NCBI GenBank assembly: GCA_904420525.1
Contig: CAJFVT010000063.1
Span: forward strand, 1 to 62,607
Direction: 5' to 3'
Length of the DNA: 62,607 nt
Source of the DNA: an uncultured Clostridia bacterium
GTDB taxonomy: Bacteria > Bacillota > Clostridia > UBA1381
The notes beneath the pieces are model-generated. The model ran no database searches, was not told the origin of the DNA, and was given only the letters and a program-made list of their open reading frames with translations. Each line of letters starts with the position of its first letter. Position 1 is the first letter of the stretch. The translations under genes were made by a program, and so were the position numbers. Shown piece after piece: positions 25,587 to 59,643 of the stretch.

Positions 25587-28500
25587 TTATGCTTTCACAT
25601 TCCATTTTGCTGCGCGCAGTACCGTTGTATCCTCTTTCTTGTCCCTGACCGGCTCTCTATCGGCATTTTTTAGAGTTAAAAGTCCCTGATGCGAGCAGTC
25701 CGCAGCCAGTCCTCGTCTGATATATTCCTCCGCCTTATCCTTCATACCCTTGCCTGTATACCCCAGAGCTGCCATATAACAGCAATGAACATAATTATCT
25801 CTTTCAGGATCGCTGTCAAACACGACAAACTCCGGCAGTGATACAGCAAAATAATTAAGCTCAGGTTTATCATCTATATGCGCGTCACAATAATTTATCA
25901 TAGTGTTAAATCCGCCCGCGGCTTTTTTATTATCGCCGAGCTTTTCATACGCAAGCGAGCGGTAATAATACATTTCAGGCTGAGCATCACTATAGTATAT
26001 GGCCGGCGCAAGACTGAAGCTGCCATCAACTGCTCTTTTAAAGCATTCGATCGACTTGATCTTATCCGTAGTCTCATATGCACAGCCCATAAGATAAAAA
26101 ATATCGTTATCCATATTGCCCGGCAGCTTCCCTTCTCCGAGATTTTCCGGATAATCCAGAGCCGCCTTGAGATGTTCCACCGCTTCCTCGTAGTCACCGT
26201 CATCTATACATTCCTTTGCACAGCCCATATGAGCCAGTCTGTACTGCTTGACTATCTTTCCCTCCACTCCCTCTCTAGGATGGAAGCTATGGCGCTTTAT
26301 GAGCTTCAGCGCATGTTTATAGTATTTCTCGCTGTTCAGTACCGTTATAAACTCTGTAAGAAGATCATCGCGGCTCTCAACGATCTCTTTATTATCCGCC
26401 ATGTCTTTGAGACGTTTCTTCACCGGATAGTTTGTGAGTCTCCTGAGCCTGTCAAGCTCAAAGAAGATGCGTGTATCCTCAGGAGCAAACATAACAGCCC
26501 GCTCCATCAGCCGCAGAGCCTCCTCGCCGTCATTGAGCTTATTATATGTAGCGATAGCCAGGTTCCTCAGGATCCGGCTGTTATTCGGCTCTATCGAAAG
26601 AGCATCCTTCCAGAGCTTTATCGCCTTGAACCAAACGCCTTTGTCATAATAGAGATTTCCAAGGCTGTATCTCGCAAACCAGTCATCCTTATTGTTTTCT
26701 ATCGCATAGCCAAGCACAAATATCTCCTGCAGCCTGTTCGGGAAGATATAATCCCTGTCACATTTCAGGGCAGCCTCAAGAGCCACTTCAAGCTCCACAT
26801 CACTGTTTGAATAATAAGCCATGTAATAATGAAGCATAGGCTTATCAGACTCGGCTATAAGCGCCAGCACATTTGCCGCATCAGCGCATAGATTTGCCTC
26901 AGCATAGCCGATCGACAGCTCAATATAATTCTGCAGATCACCATGCATCAAAGTGGTAAGCTCATTGATCACCGCAAAATCCTGCGTGAGCCTGAACAGC
27001 TCATATCTGCCCCCGAAATCAAGAGGATCGATCCTGATAGATTCCTTGGCAAACTCTGCCGCCTCCTCTGTCCTTCCGGCTATGCGCAGCAACGCACATT
27101 TCAGCATCCTTGCGCGCATATTGCGCTCTCCGCGTGCCAGTGACTCGTCTATAAATCCAAGCGCGGCTTCAAAATCGTTCAGCTTTGCAGATACGCACGC
27201 CAGCTGATAATATCCTTTATCCTGCATCTTCCCGTCCAATGCGGCCTTATAAAAAGCCTCATAGGCTTCTTTATACCTTCTCTGCATCTTCAGAGCAAGT
27301 CCAAGATTATAATACGGCTCACAGCTGTACGGGCACGGATTCAAGCCGGTCATGCGTTCCACTGCCATTCTGAACCGCTTTTCGGCCTCGTCAAAAAGTC
27401 CTTTCTTGTACAAAAGCTTTCCGTAGCCATTATTCATCCTTGTATCATATGGGTCACGCCTTAATCCCTCAAGATAGTAATCCTCAGGCCGTCTTGTCGG
27501 ATGATGGCACTGCTCCAGATGCAGAGCTGCAAAATAAAGCTCCTCCATAGATGCGATCTCCTTAGGCCGGCGCACCGCCTTAACAGGCTTTGGGAGCTTG
27601 CCGCTGAATTCCCGTTCCGGCGAATATCTTAACAATGTACGTCCGTTTTTATCCTTTATCACCAAACGCACACTCGTTTCTATCTCATCATCATCCAGCT
27701 CTATCTCTTTTTCAAACACCCTTGTAGGAGAGAGCGATGCAGTCTCCTTCATATAAGAAACAGCAGACGAGCCGGAAACGAGAACGCTTATTTCAAGCTC
27801 CTGAGGTGCATATATCATAATATGCGCTTTGCCGTCTTTGATCTCAAGATCCGCCATGACATCCACCACGGCGTTTTTCACTTCGCCAAGCTTTTTATAT
27901 GGTATAAAGTACTGTTTGAACTTTTTTTCCTCATAGGGCATTATATATGTAAATTCCGCCTGATTTTCAGTAAACACACCTGCCATAAGCTCAGCATACG
28001 GTCCATTCTCATCAGTCAGGTTCCTGTACCATGCCTTCCCGAATTCTCCGCTGCCCCAGGTCCACAGCTTTTTCCCCGGAGCAGTATAGCGGTCGGCTAT
28101 ATGCATGAGTCCCGCTTCCGCGCCGAAATCATAACTGCCAATAAAATCATAATTGGAATGATATGCCGCATATGATGTAGGAACGGGTATATTCTTATGC
28201 ATCGAAATATCCACGCCTTCACTGTAATCCGCATTACAATAGCTTCCTGTGGCGATCGGGAAGCCGGAGACCTCGCGCCGCGTCTGATCGACCACCACAT
28301 GTACATCCGGCGGGAATATGGTTTTTGTATTATCATTTACCGCTACGGCCGCGTCTGCCCACCACAGAAAGGTCCGCGGTGTATCAGTTGGATTATACAA
28401 TCTTCCCTCGACCTCGAGATACGCCTTTCCCGGATACAGCGTATACCCTGCCATACCCTTTATATGACTCATCTTATCTATCTCTCCGCACCACACGGTC

Positions 28501-28928
28501 GCCGAGCCATCCTCGTTTTCCTCTATTTTGTAGTCCACAATATCACATACCGAAAGCTTATGATGCTTCGGCCAGCTGAACTCTATCCCTCCTGAGGTCC
28601 ATGGTCCTGCAAGTCCTATAAGCGCGGGTTTTATGACCTCGTTATAATATACTGCGTCATGACCGTTAGTTTTATCATATATACGCTGTATCTTGCCACC
28701 CAGCTCCGGCAGGATCATTACTGACAGATACTCATTCTCCAAAAAAACGGCTGTATATTCTTTATTATGCTTTTCATCATTCATTGACTCAATTATCGGA
28801 TGCGGATATACTCTTCCTGAACTGCCCTGATATGCCCTGTTTTCCAGAAACATCGGGTGTGGGCAAGGCTCTGCAGTTTCATAGGTCGGTATAACTACTG
28901 TTTGCTGTTTTACCTCAACCTTATCCAT
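25587..28928 (-). CDS. DUF5107-type domain plus tetratricopeptide-repeat protein
   Basis: N-term YLSVMILPELGGKIQRIYDKTNGHDAVYYNEVIKPALIGLAGPWTSGGIEFSWPKHH; many TPR units. Confidence 0.8.
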   Translation of the reverse strand: MDKVEVKQQTVVIPTYETAEPCPHPMFLENRAYQGSSGRVYPHPIIESMNDEKHNKEYTAVFLENEYLSVMILPELGGKIQRIYDKTNGHDAVYYNEVIKPALIGLAGPWTSGGIEFSWPKHHKLSVCDIVDYKIEENEDGSATVWCGEIDKMSHIKGMAGYTLYPGKAYLEVEGRLYNPTDTPRTFLWWADAAVAVNDNTKTIFPPDVHVVVDQTRREVSGFPIATGSYCNADYSEGVDISMHKNIPVPTSYAAYHSNYDFIGSYDFGAEAGLMHIADRYTAPGKKLWTWGSGEFGKAWYRNLTDENGPYAELMAGVFTENQAEFTYIMPYEEKKFKQYFIPYKKLGEVKNAVVDVMADLEIKDGKAHIMIYAPQELEISVLVSGSSAVSYMKETASLSPTRVFEKEIELDDDEIETSVRLVIKDKNGRTLLRYSPEREFSGKLPKPVKAVRRPKEIASMEELYFAALHLEQCHHPTRRPEDYYLEGLRRDPYDTRMNNGYGKLLYKKGLFDEAEKRFRMAVERMTGLNPCPYSCEPYYNLGLALKMQRRYKEAYEAFYKAALDGKMQDKGYYQLACVSAKLNDFEAALGFIDESLARGERNMRARMLKCALLRIAGRTEEAAEFAKESIRIDPLDFGGRYELFRLTQDFAVINELTTLMHGDLQNYIELSIGYAEANLCADAANVLALIAESDKPMLHYYMAYYSNSDVELEVALEAALKCDRDYIFPNRLQEIFVLGYAIENNKDDWFARYSLGNLYYDKGVWFKAIKLWKDALSIEPNNSRILRNLAIATYNKLNDGEEALRLMERAVMFAPEDTRIFFELDRLRRLTNYPVKKRLKDMADNKEIVESRDDLLTEFITVLNSEKYYKHALKLIKRHSFHPREGVEGKIVKQYRLAHMGCAKECIDDGDYEEAVEHLKAALDYPENLGEGKLPGNMDNDIFYLMGCAYETTDKIKSIECFKRAVDGSFSLAPAIYYSDAQPEMYYYRSLAYEKLGDNKKAAGGFNTMINYCDAHIDDKPELNYFAVSLPEFVVFDSDPERDNYVHCCYMAALGYTGKGMKDKAEEYIRRGLAADCSHQGLLTLKNADREPVRDKKEDTTVLRAAKWNVKA

Positions 28929-29084
28929 AACAATCTCTCCTTCCGTATATCCATTGATCAGATCACAAAATACATTCTGTTTTTTCGATCCTCTATATCT
29001 TGCACTATAATTATACTATAAACCCAAATGTTTTGCACTACTTTTTCAAAAAATTTTATACGTCATTTTCACCAAAACATCTAT

Positions 29085-29113
29085 TTGACTTTTCAGTTAT
29101 TTTATGATATACT
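29085..29113 (+). promoter_or_regulatory. lexA promoter
   Basis: TTGACT-N17-TATACT. Confidence 0.65.
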
Positions 29114-29148
29114 ATTTTCAGCAAATTTCTTGACAGGAGGCGACTTTT

Positions 29149-29760
29149 TTGACCGGCTTAACTGATAAGGATTTCGAGATCCTCGATTTTATCCGTTCGC
29201 AGATAGACTTGAACGGCTACCCGCCAACGGTCCGTGAGATCTGCGCCTCGGTCGGACTGCGCTCGCCGGCAACTGTCCACGCAAGGCTCGGCAAGCTTGA
29301 GGCGGCCGGGTATATAAAGCGGAGCAGCTCAAAAAACAGGAGCATGAGCCTTTTGAAAGAGTCTCCGAAAACCTCCGAAAATGATTATCTGCACGTTCCT
29401 GTTTACGGAAAGATCACCGCAGGCGTGCCGATAACGGCGGTTGAACAGTATGAGGGCACCTTCCCTATACCTATGAGATACGCCGGGAACAAGGATATAT
29501 TCATGCTCAGAGTGAGCGGAGATTCGATGATCAACGCTGCGATCCTTGACGGCGATTATATAATTGTTGAAAAGCAGCCGAACGCAGATAACGGAGATAT
29601 CGTCGTAGCGCTTTTAGACAGAGAGAATGCCACAGTGAAAACCTTTTACAAGGAAAACGGACATTTTCGCCTGCAGCCTGAAAACGATCTTCTTGAGCCT
29701 ATAATATCCGATAATGTCGAGATACTCGGCAAGGTCATCGGCGTTTACAGAATGCTGTGA
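29149..29760 (+). CDS. lexA: LexA repressor (TTG start)
   Basis: GYPPTVREICASVGLRSPATVHARLGKLEAAGYIKR; S24 protease GDSMINAAILDGDYIIV; preceded by GACAGGAGG. Confidence 0.95.
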   Translation: MTGLTDKDFEILDFIRSQIDLNGYPPTVREICASVGLRSPATVHARLGKLEAAGYIKRSSSKNRSMSLLKESPKTSENDYLHVPVYGKITAGVPITAVEQYEGTFPIPMRYAGNKDIFMLRVSGDSMINAAILDGDYIIVEKQPNADNGDIVVALLDRENATVKTFYKENGHFRLQPENDLLEPIISDNVEILGKVIGVYRML

Positions 29761-29815
29761 TACGGTCCGCCCCGAAAGGTGAAATAAAAGTAATTGATTT
29801 GTAATATTATTTATA

Positions 29816-29844
29816 TTGATTTTTATTGCTTACTGTGATATAAT
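29816..29844 (+). promoter_or_regulatory. Strong sigma-A promoter of the orphan ncRNA
   Basis: TTGATT-N17-TATAAT with extended -10 TGa. Confidence 0.8.
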
Positions 29845-29849
29845 TAGTG

Positions 29850-30180
29850 TGTCCGTAAGTATACGGACACAGCTGATACACATAATACAAAGGAGATAAA
29901 TGGTAACAAATTAGGCATCCTTGCTTAATATGCCGTAGAATACTTATTCATATGTATTCTGTGTATCAATCTGCGGCAAAAGAGAGGATGATGCAAAGCG
30001 AGAACGACAGCAGACATACTCTTATTGCGGATGAAAGGGTATGTCCCTATATGCTGAGGCTCTTACCTCTATGGTTGGCCTTAATCATTTTGCTGTATTC
30101 ATATGGGGGGATTATCCCCTCAAATTGCTGAATATCAATAAAAAAAACAGGAGCGCGCATTTGTCCGTTCCTGTTTTTTA
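29850..30180 (+). ncRNA. Structured non-coding RNA of unassigned class (raiA motif should be tested)
   Basis: promoter at the 5' end, terminator at the 3' end, no long ORF; helices 29875-29888/29954-29967, 29972-29981/30088-30097, 30013-30021/30037-30045, 30107-30119. Confidence 0.8.
30141..30179 (+). terminator. ncRNA terminator
   Basis: AAAAACAGGA...TTCCTGTTTTTTATTT. Confidence 0.85.
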
Positions 30181-30191
30181 TTTATCCTTTA

Positions 30192-31487
30192 TTACGAAAT
30201 AGCAAGCTTGTTTTTATCCGCTCGTATCTCTGTGCTGTAAAACCGTGTAATAAAGCGCTCCATATACTCTGTATCCTTCGCTCCCGCTGTTTCATATGCC
30301 GAGTGCATCGCAAGCTGCGCAAGACCTATATCTGCCGAATGCACAGAAATGTGCCTGTTCATAAGATTGCCCAGAGTGGAGCCTCCGGCTATATCGCTCA
30401 TGTTATGATATTCCTGAAACGGCACTCCGGCTTCTCCGCACCACCTTTTAACTGCGGCTGCTGATACGGCATCCGTGGTGTACCTGCCGGATGCATTGTA
30501 TTTTATAACGACTCCGCCGTTCAGCCGCGGTCTGTTTACCGGATCCGCCTTTGCCGGATAACCCGGATGCATGGCATGAGCATTATCCGCAGACATTATA
30601 AAGCTTGACGGGAACCTTCTGAGATATTCCTGTCCCGTGATGCCAAGCCTTTCATTTATACGCCCTACAGTATCCTCAAAAAATGTTGATTCAGCGCCCT
30701 GTCTTGTAAGCGAACCCGTTTCCTCGTTATTGAACGCCGCGAAAATTTTGAGCATACCGCTTTTTTCGGAGTTTAGAAAGCCATTGAGGGATGCATAAAC
30801 ATTCTGAAGGTCGTCCAGCCTTCCGCTCGCTATAAATTCATTTTCGGCTCCGAACACAGTCCCCCTTTGGCGGTTGTATAAATAGAGATCACATGCCGCT
30901 ATGCTTTCCGTACCGGTCCCAAGCTCCTCCGCTATAAGCTCTTCAAGTCCGAGCTTTGCGCTGTCGGTCCTTATTACAGGAAGCATCTCATTCTGTATAC
31001 TTATCTTTCCGTTTTCATGGGCCTGCCCCATATGTACCGCAAGACTGGGAATGATCATAAGATCCCTGTCTACATTTATCAGCTTATATTCGATCCCGTC
31101 ATCCGTGTTTAACGCAACACGTCCCGCCGCCGAAAGAGGGCGGTCGAACCAGCTCTCCTTTGCCATGCCGCCGTAGCCTTCAACATTCAATCTTACAACT
31201 CCGTTGACCGGAGGAAGCTCCGGATTTGCTTTAAGCTTGAATGACGGCGAATCAGTGTGCGATGCGCATACTGCAAGCCCGATATATTCCTCCTCCGGAA
31301 GTATGAAAGCCATGACTGATGATCCTCCCCGAACAGTATAATATCTGCCTCCGGGATCTATATCCCATTTCTCAAATTCATAAAGACGGGTGAACCCCTC
31401 AGCCTCAAGCCTTGAACAAACATTTTCGGCTGCGTGATAGGGCGTAGGCGATTTTTCAATGAATTCCAAAAGCTCCATTTTGATCAT
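30192..31487 (-). CDS. apeB: M18-family aminopeptidase
   Basis: SPTPYHAAENVCSRLEAEGFTRLYE; VCASHTDSPSFKLKANPE; FNNEETGS; MSADNAHAMHPGYPAKAD. Confidence 0.95.
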   Translation of the reverse strand: MIKMELLEFIEKSPTPYHAAENVCSRLEAEGFTRLYEFEKWDIDPGGRYYTVRGGSSVMAFILPEEEYIGLAVCASHTDSPSFKLKANPELPPVNGVVRLNVEGYGGMAKESWFDRPLSAAGRVALNTDDGIEYKLINVDRDLMIIPSLAVHMGQAHENGKISIQNEMLPVIRTDSAKLGLEELIAEELGTGTESIAACDLYLYNRQRGTVFGAENEFIASGRLDDLQNVYASLNGFLNSEKSGMLKIFAAFNNEETGSLTRQGAESTFFEDTVGRINERLGITGQEYLRRFPSSFIMSADNAHAMHPGYPAKADPVNRPRLNGGVVIKYNASGRYTTDAVSAAAVKRWCGEAGVPFQEYHNMSDIAGGSTLGNLMNRHISVHSADIGLAQLAMHSAYETAGAKDTEYMERFITRFYSTEIRADKNKLAIS

Positions 31488-32034: not shown

Positions 32035-32712
32035 TCACTCAAACGGTCTTATACGGTAATCAACTCCAAGCTTTCTGCATATATCGGCACATTGCTCCTC
32101 TTCCTCTTTTGTTATAGTTGTCGCGACTGTTGTGAGCACTACCCTTTTTACATATTTTTTCACTTCTCCGGCAAACCTCAGCATAGCGTCAAACGACTCA
32201 GCTCCGAATTTGGAGCGTGTCAGCTCATAAAATCTGTCTTTATCCGGAGTGTTCAGACTTATAGAGACCACGTCTATCCTGTCTTTGAAATCGGGAGCCG
32301 TTTCACGTCCATTTATAAGGTCGGACATCCCGTTTGTATTTATGCGTATCGGCAGACTTGTCTTTTGCTTCAGATATCCGCATATCTCAAGTATATCGTC
32401 AAGCCTCTCCGTCGGCTCACCATACCCGCAGAAAACTATTTCCTTATATTTCGAAAGATCAGCCTTGTCAAACTCCGCCTTTACCTCATCCGCAGACGGC
32501 TCTCTTTCCAGCCAAAGGCTGTCGGCACTGCCGACAAAATCCTTTTCCTGTCTTAAACAAAATGTACACGCGCACGGGCATCTGTTGGTCATATTTACAT
32601 ACAGCCCGTCATGGACCTCATATAAAATAGTCATTGCTTTCATTATAAAGCTCTCCTTTCCGTTAAGTATATAGGTGATCGCGAAACGTTCGTTTCGCAA
32701 TCCGTCAAGCAA
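32035..32712 (-). CDS. Radical SAM protein, TatD-associated type
   Basis: VNMTNRCPCACTFCLRQEKDFVGSADSLWLEREPS; EIVFCGYGEPTERLDDIL; start likely internal (MTILYEVHDG). Confidence 0.85.
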   Translation of the reverse strand: MLDGLRNERFAITYILNGKESFIMKAMTILYEVHDGLYVNMTNRCPCACTFCLRQEKDFVGSADSLWLEREPSADEVKAEFDKADLSKYKEIVFCGYGEPTERLDDILEICGYLKQKTSLPIRINTNGMSDLINGRETAPDFKDRIDVVSISLNTPDKDRFYELTRSKFGAESFDAMLRFAGEVKKYVKRVVLTTVATTITKEEEEQCADICRKLGVDYRIRPFE

Positions 32713-58842: not shown

Positions 58843-59643
58843 TCACGGCTGCTTTCCGATGTAAGCAAGGATACCGCCGTCAACATAAAGAACATGTCCG
58901 TTAACCGCATTTGATGCATCTGATGCAAGGAATACAGCAGGTCCTGTAAGCTCTTCAGCCTGCAGCCATCTGCCTGCCGGAGTTCTTCCGCAGATGAACT
59001 GATCGAACGGATGTCTTGAACCGTCAGCCTGCTTTTCGCGGAGCGGAGCTGTCTGCGGTGTTGCGATATATCCCGGTCCGATACCGTTACACTGGATGTT
59101 GTAAGCGCCGTACTCTGAACAGATGTTTCTTGTGAGCATCTTGAGACCGCCCTTAGCTGCAGCGTAAGCTGAAACTGTTTCACGGCCAAGCTCTGACATC
59201 ATTGAACAGATGTTTATGATCTTTCCGTGACCCTTCTTGATCATTGAAGGAATAACAGCCTTTGATACGATAAACGGAGCGTTGAGGTCTACATCGATCA
59301 CCTGACGGAACTGCTCAGCTGTCATATCGCACATCGGTATTCTCTTGATGATGCCTGCGTTGTTGACAAGAATATCAATAACGCCGACAGTCTCCTCGAT
59401 ATCCTTTACCATGTCCTGAACAGCCTGCTCGTTTGTAACATCGCAAACATAGCCCTTAGCATCTATACCATCTGCCTTATATGCCTCCAAGCCCTTGTCA
59501 ACAAGCTCCTGCTTGATATCGTTGAACACGATCTTAGCTCCGCACTTAGCGAATGCCGATGCGATAGCATAGCCTATGCCGTATGATGCGCCTGTTACCA
59601 ACGCAACCTTACCCTCAAGGCTGAAATTCAAAAAATCACTCAT
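58843..59643 (-). CDS. Short-chain dehydrogenase, gluconate 5-dehydrogenase/KduD-like
   Basis: LVTGASYGIGYAIASAFAKCG; DILVNNAGIIKR; SAYAAAKGGLKMLTRNICSEYG; GPGYIATPQTAPL. Confidence 0.92.
   Translation of the reverse strand: MSDFLNFSLEGKVALVTGASYGIGYAIASAFAKCGAKIVFNDIKQELVDKGLEAYKADGIDAKGYVCDVTNEQAVQDMVKDIEETVGVIDILVNNAGIIKRIPMCDMTAEQFRQVIDVDLNAPFIVSKAVIPSMIKKGHGKIINICSMMSELGRETVSAYAAAKGGLKMLTRNICSEYGAYNIQCNGIGPGYIATPQTAPLREKQADGSRHPFDQFICGRTPAGRWLQAEELTGPAVFLASDASNAVNGHVLYVDGGILAYIGKQP

Follow-up and report, generated by a model that had tools for sequence, protein, structure and literature searches.

A candidate stand-alone, pseudoknotted RNA gene behind lexA in one genus of uncultured Clostridia

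The window analysed here, the whole stretch of 62,607 nucleotides from an uncultured Clostridia bacterium, carries lexA, the gene of a DNA-damage regulator (29149..29760, + strand; TIGR00498, 212 bits), and apeB, the convergent gene of an M18 aminopeptidase (30192..31487, - strand; NF002759, 490 bits). Between the lexA stop codon at 29760 and apeB lie a putative promoter, ~290 nt with a strong tendency to fold and a putative terminator, which raises the question of whether this interval encodes an RNA of its own and, if so, of which kind. That a new family of structured RNA exists at this locus can be stated with high confidence. We further consider it moderately probable that the locus is the gene of a stand-alone structured non-coding RNA, undescribed so far and restricted to one lineage, which would be transcribed and may act in trans as a ribonucleoprotein-type RNA.

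A predicted transcription unit between lexA and apeB

The proposed RNA gene (29847..30180, + strand) is ~330 nt long including its terminator, with a predicted start near 29850, and apeB lies outside it. It is preceded by a near-consensus promoter (29816..29844, + strand) made of a -35 hexamer TTGATT (29816-29821) and a -10 hexamer TATAAT (29839-29844), separated by a 17-nt spacer that carries the TG of an extended -10. This promoter had been read from the letters of the window alone, and the six-species alignment described below bears it out, as the -35 hexamer is invariant in all six relatives and the -10 hexamer is 97% identical, while the spacer and terminator sequences drift. Upstream of the -35, an AT-rich stretch (29790..29815, + strand; 88% mean identity in the six species) appears UP-element-like, and transcription from this sigma-A-type promoter of the RNA's own would probably be strong.

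A strong intrinsic terminator, CAGGA...TCCTG followed by six T, stands at ~30142..30180 on the + strand, within a nucleotide of where it was originally predicted (30141-30179). Its sequence is conserved to only 55%, yet by eye a hairpin and a T-run are present in each of the six species. A simple terminator scan of the locus did not list it, probably because its loop or mismatches exceed the limits of that tool. The symmetry of its A-run and T-run suggests that it may also serve apeB on the - strand. No gene follows the RNA on the + strand, the terminator being succeeded by the convergent apeB. The original reading of the locus as a stand-alone RNA rather than a riboswitch leader is supported by its own promoter and terminator, by the lack of a downstream gene on the same strand, and by conservation and covariation.

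Six orthologous loci

When 101 related genomes were searched at the DNA level, relatives over most of the length of the RNA were detected in five of them (G006, G007, G014, G003 and G001). Together with the genome of the window (G000), the six carriers, represented by draft metagenome assemblies, belong to one uncultured Clostridia genus, which includes Candidatus Ornithomonoglobus. The orthologues are 64-88% identical in pairwise comparisons, and their cores, between the conserved promoter and terminator, measure 256-292 nt. In all six species the core begins ~70-95 nt past the lexA stop codon and on the same strand, so that lexA is the constant upstream neighbour. The downstream neighbour is convergent in the copies examined: it is apeB in G000, G006, G007 and G014, a frame without assigned identity in G003, and a gene in G001 which, from its sequence, we take to be metK.

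A conserved and covarying fold

The window sequence had been described as highly structured, and both its folding energy and its orthologues agree. The predicted RNA folds at -116.6 kcal/mol, compared to -78.8 +/- 5.4 kcal/mol for dinucleotide shuffles (z = -7.0), and the six cores without terminator give z values of -2.1 to -5.8. With the MAFFT alignment columns taken as they are, the proposed structure has 89.8% of its cells paired, a value reached by 1 of 500 shuffles, whereas sliding it by 1 to 3 columns lowers the pairing to 31-53%. Since hand-aligned strands favour pairing, the figure from MAFFT columns is the stricter one. Eight pairs show double changes on this alignment (3 of 500 shuffles had as many) and the covariation score was matched by none of the 500 shuffles, although the power of such counts is low with six species, all of one genus. 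Some Watson-Crick pairs of P2 and of the pseudoknot described below have given way to G-U pairs; on the other strand these would be A-C oppositions, which supports the + strand.

Four of the originally predicted helices are real and covarying. The 5' hairpin P1 (29850-29857/29862-29869) keeps 30 of 30 pairs across the six species when aligned by hand, with all five core pairs changed on both sides; on the MAFFT alignment, two of its eight columns covary. The 13-bp helix P2 (29875-29888/29954-29967) shows a compensatory change of C-G to U-A and, in its hand-aligned inner part, of A-U to C-G. P3, GACATACTC/GGGTATGTC (30013..30045), has four covarying columns by hand and three on MAFFT columns, and its loop UGCGGAU (30026-30032) is invariant. 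P9, GGGGA/UCCCC (30107-30119), has two covarying columns by hand; in G001 it has covaried to GAAA/UUUC, and G003 lacks it. It is enclosed by P8, GUAUUCA/UGAAUAU (30095-30101/30129-30135), first recognised as TATTCA/TGAATA and invariant at six of seven pairs. P4, CAGCA/TGCTG (30008-30012/30052-30056), another helix of the original prediction, could be kept only in part, being 83% paired and showing no covariation. A long-range helix AAATGGT/ATCATTT was dropped, as it is lost in G001.

Two further segments are conserved, namely GGAGAUAAAUGGUA inside P2 (29892..29905; 96% identity) and the linker GAGAGGAUGAUGC (29982..29994; 91% identity over 29979-29997). An unpaired run, GAGGATGATGCAAAGCGAGAACGA, had been proposed as a conserved core; its first part, GAGGATGATGC, is indeed strongly conserved, while the remainder is not.

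A predicted pseudoknot at the core

An unbiased helix scan of the alignment was compared with 200 column-shuffled alignments, in which the longest helix was of at most 5 columns in 193 cases and never exceeded 7. In the real alignment, the two longest helices formed by all six species were GCCGUAGA/UCUGCGGC, with 8 columns, a length never reached in the shuffles, and P2 (AUACACA/UGUGUAU), with 7. Because these two helices cross, they point to a pseudoknot. In full, the crossing helix UGCCGUAGA/UCUGCGGCA (29931-29939/29970-29978, + strand) comprises nine pairs, and all 54 pairs across the six species are canonical. Its changes are one-sided only, and its connecting loop, down to ~7 nt across the 13-bp P2, may be sterically tight.

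The pseudoknot was missed in the original fold, in which an inner helix GGCAT/ATGCC had been drawn. That helix exists in the window sequence but is not conserved (67% paired, as in permuted data), and it competes with the pseudoknot for the same AUGCC. Its place is taken by the P2/pseudoknot core and by the hairpin P2a, AGGCA/TGCTT (29913..29926), which is 93% paired with four covarying columns by hand and 77% paired on MAFFT columns. A second competitor is the predicted 10-bp helix TGCGGCAAAA/TTTTGCTGTA, which could form but is down to 6-7 pairs in the two relatives that are most distant, and which requires the same strand as the pseudoknot; as duplexes, it is worth -6 to -10 kcal/mol and the pseudoknot -12 to -14 kcal/mol.

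Comparison with known RNA families

A search of Rfam 15, OLE, GOLLD and ROOL included, gave no family at its gathering threshold in the window or in the five orthologous loci. The raiA motif had been put forward as a possible identity, but its model RF03072 (gathering score 101.3 bits) was not among the matches to E = 10 over the locus; it was also without a match in 16 genomes from the genus, in a search containing no positive-control match. The likeness to raiA/ModT is one of type: that RNA is a stand-alone Bacillota RNA with a pseudoknot core, conserved unpaired segments and no tied downstream gene (PMC11706538, PMC11751092), and deleting it changes growth transitions and sporulation (PMC11706538). 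In contrast, the core is ~290 nt here and ~210 nt in raiA, and six species carry the present RNA compared to more than 2,500 for raiA. As to arrangement, the text of PMC11751092 places pk-1 and pk-2 of raiA between the P3 loop, the pk-Loop and J4-1c; the pseudoknot predicted here joins the interior of P2 to the strand 3' of P2.

Like 6S RNA, the lexA-linked RNA is a stand-alone RNA gene, but it does not form one long bulged hairpin; RF00013 had no match at the locus, and the same genome has a separate 6S gene (G000:C106). OLE, GOLLD and ROOL are larger than the lexA-linked RNA. They resemble it in being orphan structured RNAs, of the kind called ornate (PMC12286853), and differ from it in sequence. 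Several conserved GGA segments recall CsrA sponges of the CsrB/RsmZ type. This candidate was rejected, as CsrA (PF02599) was not found in any of the 16 genomes of the genus examined, with positive controls in E. coli, B. subtilis and Thermotoga.

Distribution and presence/absence at one site

With a covariance model of the six orthologues (R1), only these six copies were recovered in the family and order, and no credible copy among 392 genomes of a class sample and 399 of a phylum sample. Two weak matches among the 392 genomes (E 0.003-0.004) were judged to be due to chance given the number searched. A GTDB-wide scan with an exact core pattern returned 50 stretches, five of which are the other known copies and the rest unrelated sites; the next-best match, L111 from Bacteroidales, lies by eye inside an amylase/pullulanase-like reading frame on the minus strand. 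The covariance model picked out no additional member from these stretches. No convincing copy was found in the viral contigs scanned, and none in phage and plasmid records.

Many relatives carry lexA without the RNA, which is probably dispensable, since searches of the remaining genomes in the genus did not find it. On a LexA tree in which the base of the genus is not settled, at least three gains or losses are needed to account for the six carriers. A presence/absence pair is found at one site between lexA and the presumed metK: G005 (L027) lacks the RNA, and G001 (L006) has it. As both share lexA, the terminator sequence (CGGAGCAG...CTGCTCCG) and metK, the difference appears clean at a common site. 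An older origin followed by losses would explain these data better than several insertions into a single site.

Stand-alone RNAs that are complex and pseudoknotted are rare, and those known best occur widely. The lexA-linked RNA, a well-formed example, is confined to six species within a single uncultured genus, occupies one fixed site and is lacking in close relatives whose flanks are the same. If real, it would be a test case for the origin and loss of such RNAs, with the G001/G005 pair as a natural comparison for function.

Possible modes of action

By analogy with raiA/ModT, a trans-acting ribonucleoprotein mode is tentatively proposed. The P2/pseudoknot core would present the invariant segments GGAGAUA..GGUA, AGAGGAUGAUGC and UGCGGAU to a partner, either protein or RNA. 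Regulation would then be in trans in the raiA/ModT manner, and not that of a riboswitch or of an mRNA leader.

The conserved unpaired segments could instead regulate mRNAs by base pairing, as in a small RNA. Two of them, GGAGAUAAAUG and AGAGGAUGAUG, resemble Shine-Dalgarno (SD) or AUG regions and lie outside the supported nested helices. However, their complements gave scattered matches and no common target in the six genomes, and the conserved fold is far larger than a base-pairing seed needs, which makes this explanation unlikely.

Somewhat less likely still is a bistable RNA, in which UCUGCGGC pairs either with UGCCGUAGA, as in the pseudoknot, or with the 3' partners GCUGUA/UGCUG, a ligand, protein or partner RNA switching between the folds. 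The alternative UGCGGC/GCUGUA, of 6 bp, is likewise available to each of the six species and fits the same changes in G014 and G001, and single-sequence folds do take the 3' GCUG partners. Against it, the alternative is the weaker one in every species by the duplex energies given above, it is shorter in the distant ones, and the locus has neither an expression platform nor a downstream gene for a classical riboswitch. The wider proposal of a new pseudoknotted RNA class, whose core has an activity of its own (a two-state switch through the partners of UCUGCGGC, or a ribozyme) and a functional tie to the lexA locus, is a speculative one to which we give little weight.

An equally doubtful reading takes the RNA as a structured 3' UTR of lexA acting in cis, for example on the stability of lexA mRNA. 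The RNA always stands close behind lexA, and the interval between the two showed no terminator for lexA alone; lexA of G005 runs directly into the terminator that in G001 stands after the RNA. Yet a strongly conserved promoter separates lexA from the RNA, and the occurrence of lexA without the RNA in so many relatives also speaks against a cis role.

The reading of the locus as a short gene for a protein, with an SD sequence (AAAGGAG-ATAA-ATG), in place of a functional RNA is scarcely credible: G006 has a 158-codon open frame across the locus, part of which reads alike in four close species, but the ATG after the SD-like GGAG opens frames of 4, 4, 12, 49 and at least 79 residues for unrelated peptides in five species and is absent from G001, 111 of 131 pairwise indels (from species pairs that are not independent) are not multiples of three, and variable sites of the six-species alignment have no codon-position bias. 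The maintenance of helices P1, P2, P3 and P9 by compensatory changes, down to ~64% identity, while indels disrupt the frames argues for RNA and not protein, and the covarying, conserved fold without coding potential is that of a stand-alone structured non-coding RNA.

Other observations in the window and its relatives

The G006 frame (L002:1620-2096, + strand) begins with an SD-like GGAG and an ATG, is antisense to apeB and is not conserved; such a chance frame could mislead gene callers into a protein annotation.

No SOS box GAACNNNNGTTY was found in the lexA promoter region (29060-29148), so the LexA site of the genus may not follow the loose pattern for Gram-positives that was applied. In the window this box occurs only at 59 kb, no more often than expected by chance: two GAACAGATGTTT sites lie at 59117-59128 and 59204-59215, 87 bases apart, a count no higher than chance for the loose pattern. 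Because the two copies are identical, they suggest a short direct repeat.

Upstream of lexA and divergent from it, 25587-28928 (- strand) encodes a protein of 1113 aa whose C-terminal half carries TPR-type repeats; its TPR family matches are all below cut-off. A radical SAM protein of the TIGR04100 family, a family without known function, is encoded at 32035-32712 (- strand) and scores 274 bits, above the cut-off.
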